Below, in pieces: positions 36,640-57,129 of a stretch of 60,000 nt of DNA (the first letter of the stretch is position 1; each line of letters starts with the position of its first letter). The DNA lies in assembly GCF_026151205.1 (NCBI RefSeq), contig NC_087083.1, positions 7,668,460 to 7,728,459 of the forward strand, written 5' to 3'. The notes under the pieces are model-generated. The model did no database searches, was not told the origin of the DNA, and was given only the letters and a program-made list of their open reading frames with translations. Source of the DNA: Bolinopsis microptera (lineage: Eukaryota > Ctenophora > Tentaculata > Lobata > Bolinopsidae). The position numbers were made by a program, and so were the translations under genes.

Positions 36640-37880
36640 TGTATACAATAAAGTAATTCAAGTGTTGCAATTGGCCGAGCACAATACAGAGGTAACAGAA
36701 ATTGTCCACTGCTACCAATATTATATAATATGAAATATCAACAATCAGATATATACACATCTACTCCATCATAGGGGCAGGGATGAGGTTATAATATATA
36801 AGAGACTTCTGATAGTGGTGTCTCATATTTGCTGTCCAACGTTTTTGATTTAAATCAGAATGAATGGTGTGAATTGCTATATATTTGGTTTATATATTTT
36901 TATTTAGAGTCATTGTGACATTATGTGTATATTGTTTGAATAATTGTTTGAAATTACGTATTTGATTGTGATAGCATTCATAGGCATAGATTTGTTGAGA
37001 ACATGTATTCTGCATGGCTATCTATTCAAGGTAATTGAGGAAAACAGCTCTTCTCGACCAGCTTCAATTATGAATATGTACTCTTTTATCTCTTAGGATT
37101 TTAATTTTTATGTCTTAGGCAATGGGAATTTTATGAATGAACTATTTGAAAATCACATTATTTTCGACTATATAGTTTGCAGGGTTAGATAATGCATAAT
37201 GGTCATGTACATGCAGTACTCACCCAGTACCTTACAAGACATTCTGACTCGACTGGTATAAATTCATTCACTAGTGCTGCTGAGAGCAGCCCCCCCCCCC
37301 CCCCCCCCTTGTTTTTTATATTAATAGAATGAATGAATAATGAATCGAAGTGATATCAATTCTGGATACACTATCACATACAACTGTTAGCACCTCTTGT
37401 TCACATTATCTTCTTTACATACAAACTAAGGTCATTATTTGGATTGGTTATTATTTACAGCTCTAGCTCAGCAAAAGCTGGATGCTACACCAAAATATAA
37501 CACTGAGCAAAAAGTTTAATAATTTGTAATTCTGATTCGAAATGGCGTCTCTCTATATAAGCATAAGTTTATAGAAAACCTTTATTTTTACATGCTCATT
37601 TCACTTTACTTAACTGTGAAGTAGAAGTAAAGTCAAATTTATGACATCACATCATCACACACGTCTACGAAATATCATCACACTTTGAAGGCCAGTTATA
37701 TCGTAACCATTTAAAACAAAGATGGCCAGAACAACCATGATTTAGATGAACCATTACTGCCCGTCTAATTGACCATGATCAATTGTTCAACAATTGTATT
37801 TTTCGAAATCTCATTGAACAGCCTATCCAATTTAGGATAATTAGCTTAGCTCACAATTTAAGTCCTAATCCAATCTTTTC
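36640..37880. other. upstream region of LARS, including an apparent intron end
   Basis: No gene is recognised. A 19-base C run lies at 37290-37308. The end of the stretch, CCTAATCCAATCTTTTCCAG at 37864-37883, looks like a branch point, pyrimidine tract and 3' splice site 46 bp before the LARS start codon. It may end a 5'UTR intron or serve as a trans-splicing acceptor. Confidence 0.55.
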
Positions 37881-43905: not shown

Positions 43906-46570
43906 TTTTTTATTAAATACTTTTCAAATTTTACAGAGTACAGCAATAGATGAATATAAAATAGAACCGTTCAAAATATCGCCCCCATCTGTAAAATATG
44001 ATGGGCACCCAAACACGGTAAACACATAGTGAACTATGTCCACAGTAACTTGGACCCATTACATCGAATTAATCTAAATCCAAAAATTTATGAAAAACTA
44101 TTTAATAACAAACAAATCCATGGTGAATAACTGTGGATATAGAGTCAAAATTGGTAATTCAATACGTCAAATTCCAGATACATTAGATACAGGTCTGAAA
44201 TGGTCATTAATGTGTGAGAAGGTGTGCGGGTGAAGTGTGATATGATGTTGAAAGTATAGGAAGGTAGATAAAAAATTAATAAAACAAAAATAATAATAAT
44301 ATGGGGAGCAAAGAGACTAGGCTAGACTGTTGTTTCACTATCCAATAAACATTTCCATAGATGCTTAGTGACCTCAGCTTTGAAAAGACTAGTAGACACA
44401 ATCTGTCTTACCTGTAAAGGGAGTCCATTCCACAGTATATGGGTTCTGTAGAAAAATGATTTTGCCAGTGGGCTATTTGAGGTACATGTGGTGTGTGAAT
44501 TCTGACTTAACTTAGGTAAAATTGATGACACAATAGACAGACTGTCGAGGTGGCAACGTCTTAGTCGAGAAGTGCCCTGATATAAAGAGAGATAGTGAGG
44601 CAGCGATACAGGAATTAAATTGTTAAGAACTTTGTAGAAAAAAATAAGATCATTCAAGTCAAACTTTTGAGACAAAGGGAGAATGTCGACAAGCTTGCAC
44701 TTTTTGACATATTGCTCAGGTGGATAACTGCGGCCCTCTTCAGACAGAATCCATTTAATAGCTCTCTTTTGGAGACTTTCTAATTTATCACTAAGTGATT
44801 TATTACAAGGGCGCCAGATTATGGAACAATTTTCGAATTGGCTACGAACCAGGGAGAGGTAAAGTGCCCGGCGACGTTTCTGATCAATGACAATATGGCC
44901 ATCTCTTCTGACCATACCAAGTTGTTGGCAGGCCTTAGTATAAATTCTGTCGCACTGACTATTCCAACTTAGCTTAGGAGTAACATCGACTCCAAGATCT
45001 TTTTCTAACTCTACATACACAAGAGGAGAGCCATCAAGATTATATGCGAATGGAGGAGATAAAGATGGTTTTCCTGAATCAATAAGCACTTTACATTTTG
45101 CTGGATGGAATCGCATTTTGTTTCTTAGTGCCCAGTCAGAGAGATAGTCTATATCCATTTGTAAATTAGTATTATCAGAAGATGAATGTATTTTACGCCA
45201 GATTTTTGTATCATCGGCATACAAAACAATATCAGTATTATCCGAAAGGCCAGGAGGAATATCATTGATAAACAATACAAAAAGTAAGGGACCAAGAATA
45301 GAGCCCTGGGGGACACCAGAATTAACTGAGAGGGTAGATGACATCTCATTACCAATAACCACTCTTTGGTAACGGCCTTGAAGGTAATTGGTAAGAAATT
45401 TGAGAAGTGTACCATCAATGTTATATAAGGTCTTTAGCTTATGAAGAAGGATATCATGATTTACAGAATCAAATGCCTTAGCAAAATCAAAATACACAAC
45501 ATGATTGATAATGTTTTCGTTAAGAGACAATGCCAGGCTATCACAAAAGTCAACCATATTGGTTGTGCATGACTTGTGCTCTAGAAAACCATGCTGCCTG
45601 GGATCAAGAAGGGTACTTGTCAAAGAAAGCAGTTTACGTTTAACAATGCGCTCAAAAACTTTCATGACTAAACAAGTAAGGGATATTGGTCTATAGTTTT
45701 CAACCTCACTTTTCTTACCTTTCTTAAATATTGGGACAACATTTGCAAGTTTCCATTCTTGTGGAATGTAGCCGCTGTTGTAAGATCCACGAAAAATGCA
45801 TGTTAGAGGGTAAGCTAAACCTACGGAACAATTTTTGAGAATTTTACCGTGTATGCCATCTGGTCCCTGGGCTTTATTTGAATTAATATTTGAAAGAAGC
45901 TTACGAACATCCCGATGATCGAAGTCAATATCAAAATCAACATCATTGACATAGGAGATGTCAGTGTCATAAAGTGAAGGATCCGAAAACTGGTTATAAA
46001 AGAAAGAATTGAAAAGTTCAGCTTGAGCTTTGGGTTTGAACCGAAGCTGTCCAGAATAACTAACACAATTAGGAATACGGCAGGAGTTAGATTTATACTT
46101 AACATGTGACCAAAACTTCTTAGTTATAAGCGCTGGATCATCACTATTGAAAAGATTGTCTCTTATTTTGGCTGATGAAAGCCTCTTAAAATCTTTACGG
46201 CTAGTAACAAACTTTAACTCATCAGAAATAGAACCAGAAATTTTAAATTTAGCTCTGAGTCTATCTTTTTTACGGCATGAAGAAAAAAGTTCACTATCGA
46301 ACCACGGGGGTTGAAACTCTGATTTAATAGTTACTTTAGGAATATGTATATCGACTAAATTCATAATGCAGTCTTTAACTAACTTCCAAGACGAATCAGG
46401 ATCTAGGCATTCTAGGACTTGCCAATTAATCGAGCATAATTCACGATTAATCATGTCCCAGTTTGCTTTCTTATAATTATAGATTTTACGTTTAGGAGTT
46501 TTCTTGCGGGAAAAGGAGCTTTTAATTGAAAAAGTGACAGGAAAATGATCAGATTTGCACACGGAATGAG
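43906..46570 (-). mobile_element. 5'-truncated CR1/Jockey-superfamily LINE inserted in a satellite
   Basis: The minus-strand frame 46562-44322 (746 codons, no internal stop) starts inside the end of the APE endonuclease (SDHFPVTF). A full reverse transcriptase follows: NVVPIFKKG, FDFAKAFDSV, SGVPQGSILGPLLF, then YADD near residue 445. It ends with the typical tail RTHILWNGLP...F...L. Most of the endonuclease is absent, so it cannot move itself. The 3' end has an ATT tract at 44290-44303 and finally AATAAAAAA at 43906-43914 on the minus strand. An intact frame suggests recent insertion. The target duplication cannot be read because both flanks are the same satellite. Confidence 0.92.
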
Positions 46571-50591: not shown

Positions 50592-50807
50592 CACCATACT
50601 ATAAGTTATATCTTGATGCAAGCAAACTACAGTGTCAAGGGGTTCACATCATCGTAAGCAAGTCTGTGTACTGTAATTATTATGCAGTCATATGATCTGG
50701 TAACCATCATGTCATAAGTTGTTCACGAACACCGCCTGTTCGCGAACAGGAGTCGGGCTATCTGGATACTGCCCCCCCCCCCCCCCCCCCCCCCCCCAAC
50801 GTCACGT
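50592..50807. mobile_element. partial copy of the 31250 MITE, ending in a C run
   Basis: The right half of the MITE (GTGTCAAGGGGTTCACATCATC to GCTATCTGGATACTGCC) is preserved to 50773 and followed by about 32 C residues. Its left end begins with GTTTACCCACCATACTATAA, which is inverted relative to the full copy. The C run starts exactly at the terminal CC of the element. Confidence 0.75.
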
Positions 50808-51181: not shown

Positions 51182-51192
51182 GTTGGTATGTT

Positions 51193-51325
51193 AGTTACAC
51201 TTGATACACTTGTTACACTTGTTACACGTGTTACAATTGTTACACTTGTTACACTTGTTATACTTGTTACACTTGTTACATGTGTTACAATTGTTACACT
51301 TGTTACACTTGTTACACTTGGTATG
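51193..51325. repeat. 9 bp tandem repeat (TTACACTTG), about 14 copies
   Basis: TTACACTTG with variants TTACACGTG and TTACAATTG. It reads as a Val-Thr-Leu repeat directly after the candidate exon, but lies beyond the donor site and is probably intronic. Confidence 0.9.
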
Positions 51326-52014
51326 CAGAGCCAAACTTTAAATGTTTTACTTTTGCATTATAATATGTTAAATATTTTCCTTAATTACTTTGTGTATTGG
51401 GTCTATTACACAATACAACTTTTAAAACATCAACAAGTGAAACATGACTGTATTTGAAAGTCCTATTTTGACTATTACAATTAATAATTTAGACCTGTGG
51501 TTGAACGGTAATGGAAACTGTGGGGGGGTACCAATGGCATAAATGGCATAATGGAGAATTGGCCAAACAAAATTTCCATTTATGCCATGAAATTTCTATG
51601 CCATTTGATGAATTTTATGCCATTTGTCTCCATTCTATGCCATTCGAAATATTAAATTTTAAAACTTTGAACTGAGAATTTAATAACGAATAGTCTGCAC
51701 CCCACTAGTACTGTCACCTTTATCTCTATTTGTTGTACTGACCCTGGTCATTAGAAACACCCCTAAACAAAAAATTGAAAACTTCTGTAATTTCATTTCT
51801 GTTTTAGTTACGCATTTGATTTTTGGTATGCGTATAGAAAATCGATACGGCTTTAAAATGAGATGTTCGGCGACCTCCTAGCTCACTCACTAGACTCAGT
51901 AGGAGTGATTTAACTGCGAGGGACAATTGAGGCTAACAAATTAGCCTCACCACTTTCAAAAAAGAACTTTCTCATGTTACGTCCATGATATTCAAGTTGC
52001 AAGTATAATCCATA

Positions 52015-52112
52015 TTACCTGGGGACCTCAGGCTATTATGTTCATAAACATAGAGATTATGTTCATAAACATAGAGATTTGGCGGAATGACAGGCTGAGC
52101 GCGGCCCAGTAA
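52015..52112. mobile_element. 98 bp mini-element, copy 3, with 8 bp target duplication
   Basis: It starts TTACCTGGGGACC and ends GCGGCCCAGTAA. AATCCATA flanks it exactly (52007-52014 and 52113-52120). Inside, ATGTTCATAAACATAGAGATT is duplicated, which accounts for its extra length over the 71 bp copy at 34841. Confidence 0.85.
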
Positions 52113-52142
52113 AATCCATAGTGATTATACTTGATCGAGATC

Positions 52143-55100
52143 TAAGCTTTAAATATTCGAGGTGAAAATGAAGCTAACCACCTTTTGAGAGGGTGAAATG
52201 AGGCTAACAAGTATACTTTTGTGTATATTTTCGAGTTGGTTCGGTATTGTGACTATCTAATATGTCAACAATAAAGATTGATTCATCCTCTTCAAACTCA
52301 ACATTTCAGAAATCGCCGAGTCTACTTGTAGGAGGCCAAAATGAGGCTAATAAATAATTCGACCGCATTTTAACTTTAATGTACTACTTACTTGATTAGG
52401 TCTCCTCAATCATTCGAGTGGCCTGCACCAATGAACTCCCGTTTGTGACGTATCATCTCCCTCCAAAGTTTGCGGTCACTAGCCATCTCGCTCGCTCCTT
52501 CTAGGTCTATGTCAGTGTTTCCTGTAAACGCTGCAGCATCTTCCAGCAAACATTTCCTCCAGTTCTTTCTTGGACGGCCCCTAGATCTTCTCCCATGGGC
52601 AGGGGTCCAGTTAAGCAGGTACTTAGGAAGCCTAGTGTCTGGCATTCTGGTGACATGGCCAAACCAACGCAGGCGGTTTGCTCCTATGTACGTCTCTACT
52701 GGATTTATCTTTGCACCCTCCAGCACTTCAGTGTTTCCAACCCGATCGAGCCATCTTATCCTAAGTATTCTCCTCAAGCAACGCTGATGGAACACCTCAA
52801 AGCGATGTAGCTGCTTTTTGGTTGTGTTCCAAACCTCACTACCATATAACAATATTGTCAAAACCGCTGCCTTATAAATCCTGATCTTTGTATAAGACTG
52901 GATGTTGCGGTTTTTCCATATATTACTCAGTTGATTGAAGGATCCGGAAGCTTTCTGAATCCTAGCTGACAACTCACGGTCGATAGTACCGTCGCTGGAA
53001 ATAATTGTACCTAAGTACGTAAAATCACTAACTTGCTGCACTGGCGTGTCTTCAACAGTGATGTTCACTGTGGCTTCTTTCGTGTATGGCCGTTGAGAGG
53101 TTGCTTTACCAATGACCATAGCCTCAGTCTTTTTACCATTGATTCTAAGACCTCCCTGGGCACCATACATACACAAAAGGTCAGTTGTTTCTTGAAGACC
53201 TTCCTCGCTGTTATCCAGTACAGCCATGTCATCTGCATAATCTGTATCTAACACAGTGATATCATCAACAAGCGGACTGATAGATCTTTGAAGAACCGCT
53301 CCGTGGGACACCACTTTGTTGCTTTCTGTTCTCTCAGCAGCCACATTGAGGCAGACATTAAAAAGTGGGGGACCCTGAATGTCTCCTTGGCCACTGCCTG
53401 AACTTACTTCAAACCATTCTGATAGTTCACCATTGTGTCTAACAGCACTAACAGTTCCATTAAAGAATGCCTGTATTATTCGAATGTATTTACATGGCAG
53501 GCCATAATGACTGAATGCTTTCCAAATATAATTCCTGTCGATGGAATCAAAAGCTGCCTTGAAGTCCACAAAATTTACATACAGGGGGAGATTATATTCA
53601 ATGCAGTTATGTATAATAGTGCGGAGTGAATAAATCTGATCAATGCATGATCTGTTCTTTCTAAACCCACACTGATTGTCTCGTAGCAAACTTTCTAAAC
53701 CGTCACTCATGCGTTGTAATATGATGATTTGATACAGTTTAGATGCTGTAGATCTTAGAGTGATCCCCCTATTATTGGAGCAATGAGAGGTATCACCCTT
53801 CTTTGGTACAATTATCACGATGCCTTTCAACCAGTCGTCAGGCACTGCTTCTGAATTCCAAACTTTAGAGAACAATTTCTCCATCCTATCCACAAGACCA
53901 CTTGCCCCATACTTTAACTGCTCATTAGAGATTTCGTCGATCCCAGCACTTTTGTGGTTCTTCAATTTTTTGAGACAGTTTAAAATCTCAAGTCTAGTGG
54001 GGGGACCATCACCATCACCAAGATAAGGAAAGCATGGAACCACTTCAAGATGGTCCAGGTCAGACAGATCCGCATTCGTGGGAGGAGGGTTTAATAGCTC
54101 CGAAAAATGTTCTCCCCATCTCTCTCTCTGAGCAGAAGGATCAGCAATCAACTTCCCGGATTTGTCTCTTACAGCAGTTGATTTTCGATTCTTCATACCG
54201 GACAGTGTTTTTATCCGTTGCCAGACTTCCCTTTGCCGGCCATGGACAGCAGCTGTTTCCAGATCTGCTGCAACTCTAAGAGCCCAATTCTCGTCGTCTT
54301 TCCTGCAGCTCTTTTTGACAAGTTTGTTGGCCCGAGAATACTCGCTCCTATTGTTGTTGTCACTAGGCGCCATCTGTTTAATCTTACTGCGTTCTGCAAT
54401 AAGGCTTTTTGTCTCCTGAGACAAATGCTGCTGCTTTCTGCGCCGGGGGCGCTCACCCAGTACCTCCATAGACACTTCTTTAATGGTATCCTTAACTAAT
54501 GTCCATTCTCCATCAAGATTCTCCTCCATTGGTAGGCAGCTAAAACGATTTTGAAGAGCAATGCAGTACTCTTCAACCTTGGACACGTTACTTGATATCC
54601 ATGTTGCACATGAAATTCCTTGGGATTATATTTAATCGGTATTTAAGCTTCAAATATTCGAGGTGAAAATGAGGCTAACCACCCTTTGAGAGGGTGAAAT
54701 GAGGCTAACAAGTATACTTTTGTGTATATTTTCGAGTTGGTTCGGTATTGTGACTATCTAATACGTCAACAATAAAGATTGATTCATCCTCTTCAAACTC
54801 AACATTTCAGAAATCGCCGAGTCTACTTGTAGGAGGCCAAAATGAGGCTAATAAAAAATTCGACCGCATTTTAACTTTAATGTACGGAAACAGGTTAACA
54901 ACTCACAAGTTACTTGATATCTATGTTGCACATGAAATTCCGTCGGATTATAGCTTCAAATTTTCGAGGTGAAAATGAGGCTAACCACCTTGTGAGAAGG
55001 TGAAATGAGGCTAACAAGTATACTTTTGTGTATATTTTCGAGCATGTTCGGTATTGTGACTATCTAATGTGTCAACAATAAAAATTTATTCATCCTCTTC

Positions 55101-55201
55101 AAGCTCAACATTTCAGAAATCGCAGAGTCTTCTTGTAGGAGGCCAAAATGAGGCTAATAAATGATTCGACCGCATTTTAAGTTGTAACTTTAGTGTACGG
55201 A
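52143..55201 (+). repeat. three ~300 bp tandem repeats rich in GAGGCTAA
   Basis: Copies at about 52143-52387, 54645-54888 and 54952-55201 are highly similar. Each carries ATGAGGCTAACCACC, ATGAGGCTAACAAGTATAC and ATGAGGCTAATAAA. The period is 301-306 bp once the RTE insertion is removed. More GAGGCTAA motifs lie just outside (51928, 55380, 55412). They are non-coding and confined to the transposon. Confidence 0.92.
52397..54596 (-). mobile_element. 5'-truncated RTE-like LINE with 9 bp target duplication
   Basis: The minus-strand frame 54586-52406 (726 codons, intact) encodes a reverse transcriptase: IVIIVPKKGD, VDFKAAFDSI, then YADD near residue 449. The C-terminus contains YGSEVW, LRWFGHVTRMP and RGRPRKNW, typical of RTE-type endonuclease/RT proteins. 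The endonuclease is missing. Only nine bases follow the stop codon, and very short 3'UTRs are characteristic of RTE. TTACTTGAT at 52388-52396 and 54588-54596 is the target duplication. It sits between internal repeats 1 and 2 of the host transposon. Confidence 0.9.
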
Positions 55202-55677
55202 AACTAGTATCTTTGTTTCACACAATAGAGCATAAGTTTTGTGGTTTATCCACTGGGCTTAGAGTTTGTGTTTAAGCTACCAAATTTTATTATTATTATT
55301 ATTATAGACCCACTATAAAACTTGTAACTGTAGCCCGAAGGTTATTGAGACTTTATCGAAACTTATGTGAGGTTGGATTGAGGCTACCTTCCCTCCTTGA
55401 GGCAAAATTGAGGCTAACAGATACACTACGCAGACAATTGTCACTGTGCCAGCTATCAAGTAGTTGCTGAGCAGCAGCAGCAGTTAGATGAAGAAAATGA
55501 AGTTGAGGAAGGAAATGTATTAGAGCTGTTGGCTAGAGTAGGCCCCTTACTTCTATGGAGCTCTCTGGCCAATTGCTCTGGCAATGCTCTCCATGGGGCC
55601 ATGTAATATCACATGATCTGATATCATGCCAAATTAGACTCTAAACTATAAAGTATAATAAAAATGGAACTGTTTGA

Positions 55678-56712
55678 GAAAAAACATTTTTCGTTACTTG
55701 GAAAGAGAATACTTACTCAGCTGTCAGCATAACGAATCAGACGTACCTTGATCTTATATGTACTTGTGACGGTCTTATTTTGTATTTAACTCTGCTGAAG
55801 AAGCAATTCCCTAATGCTGAAATCGTCACTTATTACCTTGGAAGTGATCAGAATGAGCAGCTGTTTGCATTTATTCGGGTTTCTTTTTCATCTGGTCGCT
55901 CAAGAAATATGGATGCGATAACTATGGCCCATGGAATGGAGAGAAAGAATGTGTACAGTGCTTTATCATTACATGAAGACACATCTGCAATTGCACATGC
56001 ACGTGGAAGTACAGTTTTGCATCCTACAGTTCACCTCAAAAAGGTTAAATCTACAGGCCAGAAAGCAGAACGAGTGAAATGGACTGGTGGTATGATAAGC
56101 CTAGGCAAGTTGGCAAAAACGCTGGACAGGGCATCGAGGGACTGCATTCGAGAAGGGAAAAGAAACAATTTCCCTGTGTTCGCCGCAGTCGCAGATCCTG
56201 AAGAACAGAGTGGGAAGCCAATCGTCCATGGCCAAGAACTTTCTTGGGAAGCTGTAGATGATGAAGCTGGATGCCTCGAGGATGAGGACGACTTAGCTTA
56301 TGAGGTAGAACCTGGAGTTGATGATTGTGATGATGGAGAAACGATATCAACAGATAAATATGGAACACTATCCTTCCGGTCTTTTGAGACACTCACGCTC
56401 AATGGAGGAAGAAGCACTTTATCAACAAAATCTCGTCTTTCAAGATTCAAGGGGGACGCGTTTGGAGTGTCTTCTGATGTTCGCATATACAATCAATCTG
56501 AATGCGGATGTTCAACAGTTTTGAAAGCTGGCAGTACAGAAACTCTTAAAGTCTTCAAATCTCAGCAGGACTTTGCAACAGGAGTGGTTAGATTTATTTC
56601 TTATAAGTCATGCCCCATGAAGTACTACTGCCAGGAACATAGCCTAATCAATGGATCTCCTAATGTTTGGCTACTCGTCGAAGACAAATACATCAGATGC
56701 ATTGTTCCTTGA
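55678..56712 (+). CDS. last exon of a P-element-like transposase
   Basis: The frame is open from 55678; a 3' splice site (TTACTCAG) ends at 55717, and there is no good ATG. The start of the product reads TNQTYLDLICTCDG, then LLKKQFPNAEIV, then GSDQNEQLFAFIR. The last string matches the D-x2-E-x2-F-x2-IR motif holding the final acidic residue of the RNase H-like core in P-element/THAP9-type transposases. An acidic segment (EDEDDLAYEVEPGVDD) and a Cys-containing tail follow. Upstream transposase exons were not found between the repeats, so the copy is non-autonomous. The family assignment is inference. Confidence 0.6.
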   Translation, partial: EKTFFVTWKENTYSAVSITNQTYLDLICTCDGLILYLTLLKKQFPNAEIVTYYLGSDQNEQLFAFIRVSFSSGRSRNMDAITMAHGMERKNVYSALSLHEDTSAIAHARGSTVLHPTVHLKKVKSTGQKAERVKWTGGMISLGKLAKTLDRASRDCIREGKRNNFPVFAAVADPEEQSGKPIVHGQELSWEAVDDEAGCLEDEDDLAYEVEPGVDDCDDGETISTDKYGTLSFRSFETLTLNGGRSTLSTKSRLSRFKGDAFGVSSDVRIYNQSECGCSTVLKAGSTETLKVFKSQQDFATGVVRFISYKSCPMKYYCQEHSLINGSPNVWLLVEDKYIRCIVP

Positions 56713-57129
56713 TGACATTCAAAATCGTTGTGTTGTCAATGTTTGTATTCTGTACATTTTGAACATCTCACAATTTGCTTTTCTTGAATAGTGAAATGTT
56801 TGGTATATATTTGATATAATACATTTCTATTTTCTTTATTTGTCATATGAATCTTTGACTTTAACGATCATTCCAAGCGTTATAAAGCATGAAACATGTC
56901 TCTTATTCAAGTACTAATAATATTTGCGAATTTAAAGTCATCCTAAAGGTCAAATATGAAGACCTAAATTCATGGCATAAATTGGCATAAATGGAGAATT
57001 GGCCAAACAAAATTTCCATTTATGCCATGAAATTTCTATGCCATTTGATGAATTTTATGCCATTTGTCTCCATTCTATGCCATTGGTACCCCCCCCCCCC
57101 CCCCCCCCCCCCAAACTGTGTCATGTCTG

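Follow-up and report, generated by a model that had tools for sequence, protein, structure and literature searches.

The window analysed here is a 60,000-nt stretch of the genome of the comb jelly Bolinopsis microptera (NCBI RefSeq assembly GCF_026151205.1, contig NC_087083.1, positions 7,668,460 to 7,728,459 of the forward strand). Within it, at positions 51523–57112, two copies of the octamer AAACTGTG enclose an element of 5,590 bp, as read directly from the letters. The element begins with six G followed by TACCAATGGCATA, ends in an inverted version of this tip, and holds a pair of terminal direct blocks, a segment with GAGGCTAA repeats and a nested retroelement, and the last part of a putative transposase gene (Table 1). 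We take it very probably to be a non-autonomous copy from a family of cut-and-paste DNA transposons. The family is real and looks recently active; it is non-autonomous, its superfamily is undecided, and its end architecture is uncommon.

Table 1. Features of the transposon copy and its borders, in window coordinates.
Feature	Position	Strand	Basis
Left 8-bp target site duplication AAACTGTG	51515..51522	+	read directly; both-end comparison of copies
Left inverted tip GGGGGGTACCAATGGCATA with 6 G	51523..51541	+	direct reading; genome copies
Element's own 5′ end, common to copies with other interiors	51523..51739	+	
5′ terminal block, direct repeat of the 3′ block, imperfectly self-complementary	51534..51644	+	
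Foreign segment with GAGGCTAA tandem repeats, retroelement nested inside	51740..55680	.	junction comparisons
GAGGCTAA repeat unit A	52112..52384	+	
Nested retroelement insertion, reverse transcriptase RVT_1 (E=6e-26)	52385..54582	-	Pfam match; copy comparison
GAGGCTAA repeat unit B	54613..54891	+	
GAGGCTAA repeat unit C	54905..55204	+	
C-terminal part of putative DDE transposase, catalytic-E motif SDQNEQLFAFIR	55681..56709	+	frame; own-genome alignment; hhalign
3′ terminal block, direct repeat of the 5′ block, imperfectly self-complementary	56972..57084	+	
Right inverted tip: TATGCCATTGGTA (57076-57088), then 24 C (57089-57112)	57076..57112	+	
Right 8-bp target site duplication AAACTGTG	57113..57120	+	read directly; both-end comparison of copies

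A preliminary description of this DNA had proposed a bounded transposon with exactly readable ends and an 8-bp duplication, and direct reading confirms both ends and AAACTGTG. The bounds are borne out by further copies that share the termini and have 8-bp duplications. Searching the genome (264.65 Mb; 232 contigs, including 13 large ones) for the exact tip motif GGGGGTACCAATGGCATA returned 271 matches, 134 forward and 137 reverse, against 0 and 0 for the reversed control; the family thereby numbers more than a hundred copies. The listing of tips is complete for contigs C1–C4 and partial for C5; its first 100 tips form 46 facing pairs and leave 8 tips unpaired. Two pairs lie less than 150 bp apart, 19 at 305–325 bp, three at 350–2000 bp, 13 at 2–4 kb and nine at 4 kb or more. 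The 305–325-bp pairs are miniature inverted-repeat transposable elements (MITEs), and the family further comprises a solo-block mini-element and ~3-kb copies retaining only the transposase C-terminus. An identical 8-mer flanked both ends in 19 of the 21 copies with both ends available, the matching letting a tip G or C count as target; mismatched end pairs, used as a control, agreed in 2/420 cases, both of them cross-pairs of copies L074 and L075. As these two share their flanks, they represent one duplicated insertion, and counted by insertion the duplications number 18/20. The mini-element L077 is an insertion of 136 bp, G and C runs included, within a 24-bp tandem repeat whose neighbouring units are intact, so that the empty site is visible.

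The homopolymer tips expand, as first described, and some copies carry longer runs than the window copy. The commonest run length was seven (9/21 left ends and 10/21 right ends), and the longest runs, of 27 G and 39 C, each occurred in single copies. Such long runs are copy-specific, and we explain them by slippage once the element is in place or, partly, by sequencing error.

A number of loci deserve separate mention. L074 (C4:5404302-5409097) and L075 (C4:5579047-5583882) are separated by 175 kb, point in opposite directions and share the duplication GATCGGTT; they constitute an inverted segmental duplication. Two tandem copies at C5:19873762-19883227, 3.84 kb apart, have matching right flanks; this is probably a local duplication that included flanking DNA. 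At C5:70576-77421 (L079 with L011), a 6.8-kb family copy encloses, between its two ends, a C-rich array well in excess of 1 kb. In the window itself, an imperfect TTACACTTG microsatellite (51187-51330) lies just upstream of the element, and two more long C runs (50772-50797 and 37290-37308) lack the tip motif and were not recognised as transposon ends.

Inside the outer tips, the two ends of the element are direct rather than inverted repeats of one another. The preliminary description had noted ATGGCATA-rich blocks in direct order on both sides, and this arrangement stands: the 5′ and 3′ blocks of the window copy are identical at 111/113 aligned positions. Their inner ends have no G/C tip, and inverted tips are present on the outer ends only. 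Across the window, ATGGCATA/TATGCCAT and GAGGCTAA/TTAGCCTC were found inside the element only, except for one TATGCCAT at 45852. Direct end repeats of ~100 bp occur in all three diverged families for which both blocks were at hand (identity 111/113, 93/98 and 94/103), with direct alignment scores of 212, 171 and 157 versus maxima of 31, 33 and 28 among 200 shuffles each; the inverted alignments of the same blocks scored 66, 72 and 47. As for a possible fold of the DNA, the 3′ block stood out from its shuffled versions (z −3.5; 0/200 shuffles fold as well), and the 5′ block was unremarkable (z −1.2; 25/200).

Blocks of one copy resemble each other more than they resemble those of other copies. 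Among 18 copies of shared ancestry (the 21 both-end copies minus L075, as a duplicate of L074, and minus L077 and L078), the identity of 5′ to 3′ blocks was 0.972 within a copy versus 0.944 between copies, a difference reached in 0/5000 permutations. Leaving out the MITE L076 and copy C5b gave 0.978 versus 0.965, again with 0/5000. The variants GATGATTTTT versus GATGAATTTT, and AAGCA with GACGA, recur at the two ends of individual copies, and in a few copies (C13:8137561, C5b, C6b and L074) the ends differ from each other. Copy by copy, the 5′ and 3′ blocks have been kept homogeneous, much as in retrovirus-like elements.

Sister families share parts of this design. L073 is a complete element of 2,083 bp, GGGGG...CCCCC, whose ends read GGGGGTAATGCAACG...CGTTGCATCACCCCC between two copies of the duplication TTTAAGGT; its tip has 10 exact matches in the genome (reversed control, 0). 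G-run 5′ tips are also found in the L070 and L086 families: L070 starts with G17-CAATGGCATAAAATGGCATA, a tip with 22 genome matches (reversed control, 0), and the 5′ end of the L086 family is a G-run followed by CCAAGTGG in two copies. Several copies at C1:10297300 and relatives (L086–L089) are 99–100% identical, and this sister family is, on sequence similarity, probably very recent. Among the exon matches listed, nearly all are at least 96% identical to the window exon, with one exception at 90%; together with the near-identity of the L086-family copies, this makes the families look recently active.

Much of the interior of the window copy is foreign. Homology to other copies ends at 51738-51739 in 18 of 37 alignment rows, two of the 37 being the window copy itself, and 17 of these 18 stop exactly at 51739. 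Nine matches without the 5′ end start at query positions 222–226 or 253, equivalent to 51736-51740 or 51767 (among the best 40 of 441 candidates). The right junction is drawn from copy C6b alone, in which transposase coding runs up to a shared AAAACATTTTTCG at 55681; the window DNA is unrelated there. The window copy holds 10 forward and 1 reverse GAGGCTAA, and a ~3.3-kb copy at C7:13464075 has 11 forward, against a mean of 0.04 in 300 first-order Markov sequences. Units of this repeat also occur elsewhere in tandem with a spacing of ~310 bp (99 matches, among the best 40 of 111 candidates), for example at C1:9106185, C1:15877600, C2:12212571, C3:14235790 and C4:1365844. Up to 10 kb around these five loci the listing of tips has no exact tip; decayed tips would escape it. 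The stop in homology at 51739 and the occurrence of the repeats away from tips show that the window copy's lineage contains a foreign repeat.

This bears on two claims of the preliminary description. Three tandem copies of ~300 bp do exist and hold most of the GAGGCTAA motifs, but to call them saturating was too strong; nor is it supported that they belong to the design of the element; they also occur away from the family and look captured. A family-intrinsic array of transposase binding sites was considered as well and rejected: the repeats are absent from copies whose homology ends at 51739 and present far from exact tips. The earlier reading had also overlooked the nested retroelement of ~2.2 kb, presumably RTE-like, which is missing at the same site in the copy at C7:13464075. 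A close relative of it lies at another site, within the transposase exon, in L074 and L075.

The exon itself was described as the last part of a transposase with the motif DQNEQLFAFIR, and the frame is as claimed: the open frame at 55678-56712, stop codon included, encodes 344 amino acids containing this motif. A six-frame search with the exon returned at least 123 genome matches, diverged relatives included (among the best 117 of 193 candidates). L069 has an open frame of 766 amino acids, L082 and L083 are interrupted frames of nearly full length, and C-terminal parts are present in L072, L073, L084, L085 and L086. In the alignment of L069, L082 and L083, the residues D, D, DxxH and E follow in this order (D297, D434, DxxH at 482 and E659 in L069, numbered from its first Met), within motifs of the form QDxxHxxKKxRN and SDxNEQLFAxxR. 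Copy C6b extends the window exon upstream in line with these three sequences; the window element itself retains only the catalytic E of the triad. The L069 frame (C11:13821644-13823941) is intact, one partial close relative was found (C11:16937571, 81%), and termini of its own were not found. L069 could be a domesticated gene or a last autonomous element.

Database profiles were of little help in naming this protein. The exon had no Pfam match at E ≤ 1, and among PDB entries it returned four unrelated weak matches only, the best being interleukin-1 beta (E 0.16); L069 and the family profile gave nothing in PDB at E ≤ 10. Across eight members, Pfam matches at E ≤ 10 included no transposase model, only five unrelated weak families (best E 0.036), and the comparison with P-element/THAP9, KDZ and hAT profiles suggested earlier found no transposase counterpart in Pfam. 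PF21787 had no match in the genome, but none in all 14 control genomes either. No THAP match was obtained in L069 or L082, both of which begin with CxxC and later histidines. Rfam yielded nothing of use, and a scan of IMG/VR gave two stretches with the pattern and no relative.

KDZ, hAT and MuDR have Pfam models, and the catalytic-E motif found here is, we presume, unlike theirs. That the element belongs to one of these three groups is unlikely: although 8-bp duplications are usual in hAT and also known from Zisupton (PMC12730594), and hAT and MuDR also have C/DxxH (PMC9587614), none of their transposase families was among the Pfam matches of the eight members, and in two Kyakuja families the termini read CA..TG and the duplications measure 7 bp (PMC12730594).

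The earlier label 'P-like' is favoured by motif order and weak profile similarity and opposed by the lack of a Pfam or PDB transposase match and of a THAP match. The transposase appears P-like in layout, with its superfamily undecided. Ordinary membership of the P superfamily, with divergence alone hiding the element from P models, we put at somewhat short of an even chance. An 8-bp duplication is found in P elements (PMC7776569) as in 19/21 copies here and in the sister L073; the order D...D...DxxH...E equals the P signature string (PMC8230255); and DPLHCAKKIRN is similar to DTPHLIKLVRN of P, as is SDLNEQGFAFVR to NQDIVEHFFGSMR. The catalytic residues of P transposase are D230, D303, D339 and E531 (PMC8230255), and hhalign against the Drosophila enzyme (PDB 6p5a) placed the E of the family on E531 in the correct register, 3/200 shuffles scoring as high or higher and the reversed sequence lower. 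However, the one-to-one E-values were 0.094 and 0.051, with only the 37 columns of the E region aligned. The spacing of the first two aspartates is 126–142 here versus 73 in P (D230 to D303; PMC8230255), and the transferred strand would here end in C, whereas the GTP contact in P is a terminal G (PMC7776569). Of the residues of the GTP-binding insertion domain of P, D528 has an equivalent in the alignment, and equivalents of K400, V401 and S409 are not recognisable there by eye (residues from PMC7776569).

A Kolobok-like element, akin to KolobokP, is a third candidate. In KolobokP the long direct repeats at the two termini have inverted ends of their own, and solo copies with duplications occur; Kolobok termini are RR..YY with a DxxH transposase (PMC9587614). 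The present family has GG..CC termini, blocks in direct order and, in L077, a solo block flanked by a duplication. We nevertheless regard this assignment as decidedly unlikely. The 8-bp duplication in 19/21 copies stands against TTAA in Kolobok and 3–5 bp for solo KolobokP repeats (PMC9587614), which disfavours it; the inner block ends are without a G/C tip, and no accessory nuclease was noticed in the truncated copies, though no search was aimed at one. A further possibility, rather doubtful in our estimate, is a separate DDE superfamily that would be sister to P and Kolobok and marked by homopolymer G/C tips, LTR-like (long terminal repeat-like) direct blocks that recombination or gap repair would keep identical, and solo blocks that are shed and stay mobile.

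For the exon, coding variation was compared in 23 copies (24 exon rows aligned end to end, minus the C12 row, which is the window copy). Unique variants comprised 26 synonymous, 59 nonsynonymous and 4 stop changes, versus 20.5, 62.9 and 5.6 expected, a ratio of nonsynonymous to synonymous changes (N/S) of 0.74 of expectation (p=0.21). In three pairs of sister-family sequences, dN/dS was 0.80–1.10. Taken together, the exon looks like an unselected residue. P elements have a truncated repressor, KP, and the C-terminal exon might likewise have been kept as a regulatory protein. The 344-amino-acid frame is open in several copies, and in the sister family the frame has stayed open over 521 amino acids in L073 and 560 in L072, with 521-amino-acid frames in further copies. 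The near-neutral variation in the 23 exon copies and the sister dN/dS values nonetheless speak against a selected truncated protein, and in the window copy the E motif is preceded by no in-frame ATG; we consider a regulatory role most unlikely.

Several observations weigh against the interpretation of the element as a non-autonomous copy of a cut-and-paste family. No autonomous copy was found: the examined copies carry at most the C-terminal part of the transposase, and none of them gave an N-terminal match. Querying with the region of the first two aspartates of L069 returned nine rows, six of them at E ≤ 0.001, at about five loci, none seen in the window family; C-terminal exons number dozens in the genome. 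The near-neutral exon gives no sign of retained protein function. As neither Pfam nor PDB provided a transposase match, the DDE assignment draws on motifs and own-genome alignment, and a single-sequence AlphaFold model with a mean pLDDT of 34 lends it no fold backing. Clean duplications are absent in 2/21 copies, namely C5b, in a pyrimidine tract, and L078, with an internal terminus, while an L070 copy is without the right C-run and showed no duplication. Homopolymer lengths may include sequencing error, and because the copies share ancestry, the block permutations count inherited states, of which at least three were seen, rather than independent events.

How such a family might move and change can be outlined as follows. 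A DDE transposase distantly related to P would act in trans, with cleavage at the G/C tips and an 8-bp stagger at the joining step, and the ATGGCATA/TATGCCAT motifs in the blocks may be its binding sites. Gap repair that follows excision, or recombination of one direct block with the other, could produce internal deletions, capture foreign DNA and keep the blocks alike. In the lineage of the window copy, a foreign repeat would have been captured once and then multiplied along with it, and long G/C runs may grow by replication slippage after insertion.

If this picture is true, a DNA transposon can maintain, within its inverted tips, direct repeats homogenised in the manner of LTRs, and the family offers a natural system for gap repair between repeats that yields MITEs, captured foreign DNA and matched ends. 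The host belongs to the comb jellies, a contested early animal branch, and its transposase would help to test the age of the P-like DDE lineage. On a practical level, the tips provide a simple search motif for annotation, with 271 exact matches in the genome and none for the reversed control. That the family is undescribed, as first proposed, is plausible: no such element appeared among the literature matches listed, Repbase and Dfam lying outside that search, and these matches included neither G/C-run tips with 8-bp duplications nor any such ctenophore element.

Compared with known systems, the elements resemble the P superfamily in the 8-bp duplication, the order D, D, DxxH, E, the D-xx-E spacing seen as D528/E531 and the internally deleted non-autonomous copies, whereas they differ in having no Pfam P match, no THAP found, a longer distance between the first two aspartates, G/C-run tips and direct blocks; terminal direct blocks like these are not described in the accessible part of a P review (PMC7776569). 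Zisupton shares the 8-bp duplication, without a KDZ protein match in Pfam here. Dada is likewise a DxxH superfamily; its insertions lie in small RNA genes, its duplications are short and, in the families covered by the available text, it lacks terminal inverted repeats (PMC3706591). Like MITEs of other DNA transposons, the short copies are internal-deletion derivatives that keep the termini; unlike these, the 324-bp MITE L076 combines G/C tips with two direct blocks. Among the literature matches listed, the nearest published precedent is KolobokP, the only one reported, in the text accessible, to combine terminal direct repeats and solo copies (PMC9587614). It shares with the present family terminal direct repeats with outer inverted tips, a solo repeat with a duplication, RR..YY termini and DxxH, while the family described here is set apart by 8-bp duplications, blocks of ~100 bp and tips on the outer ends only.

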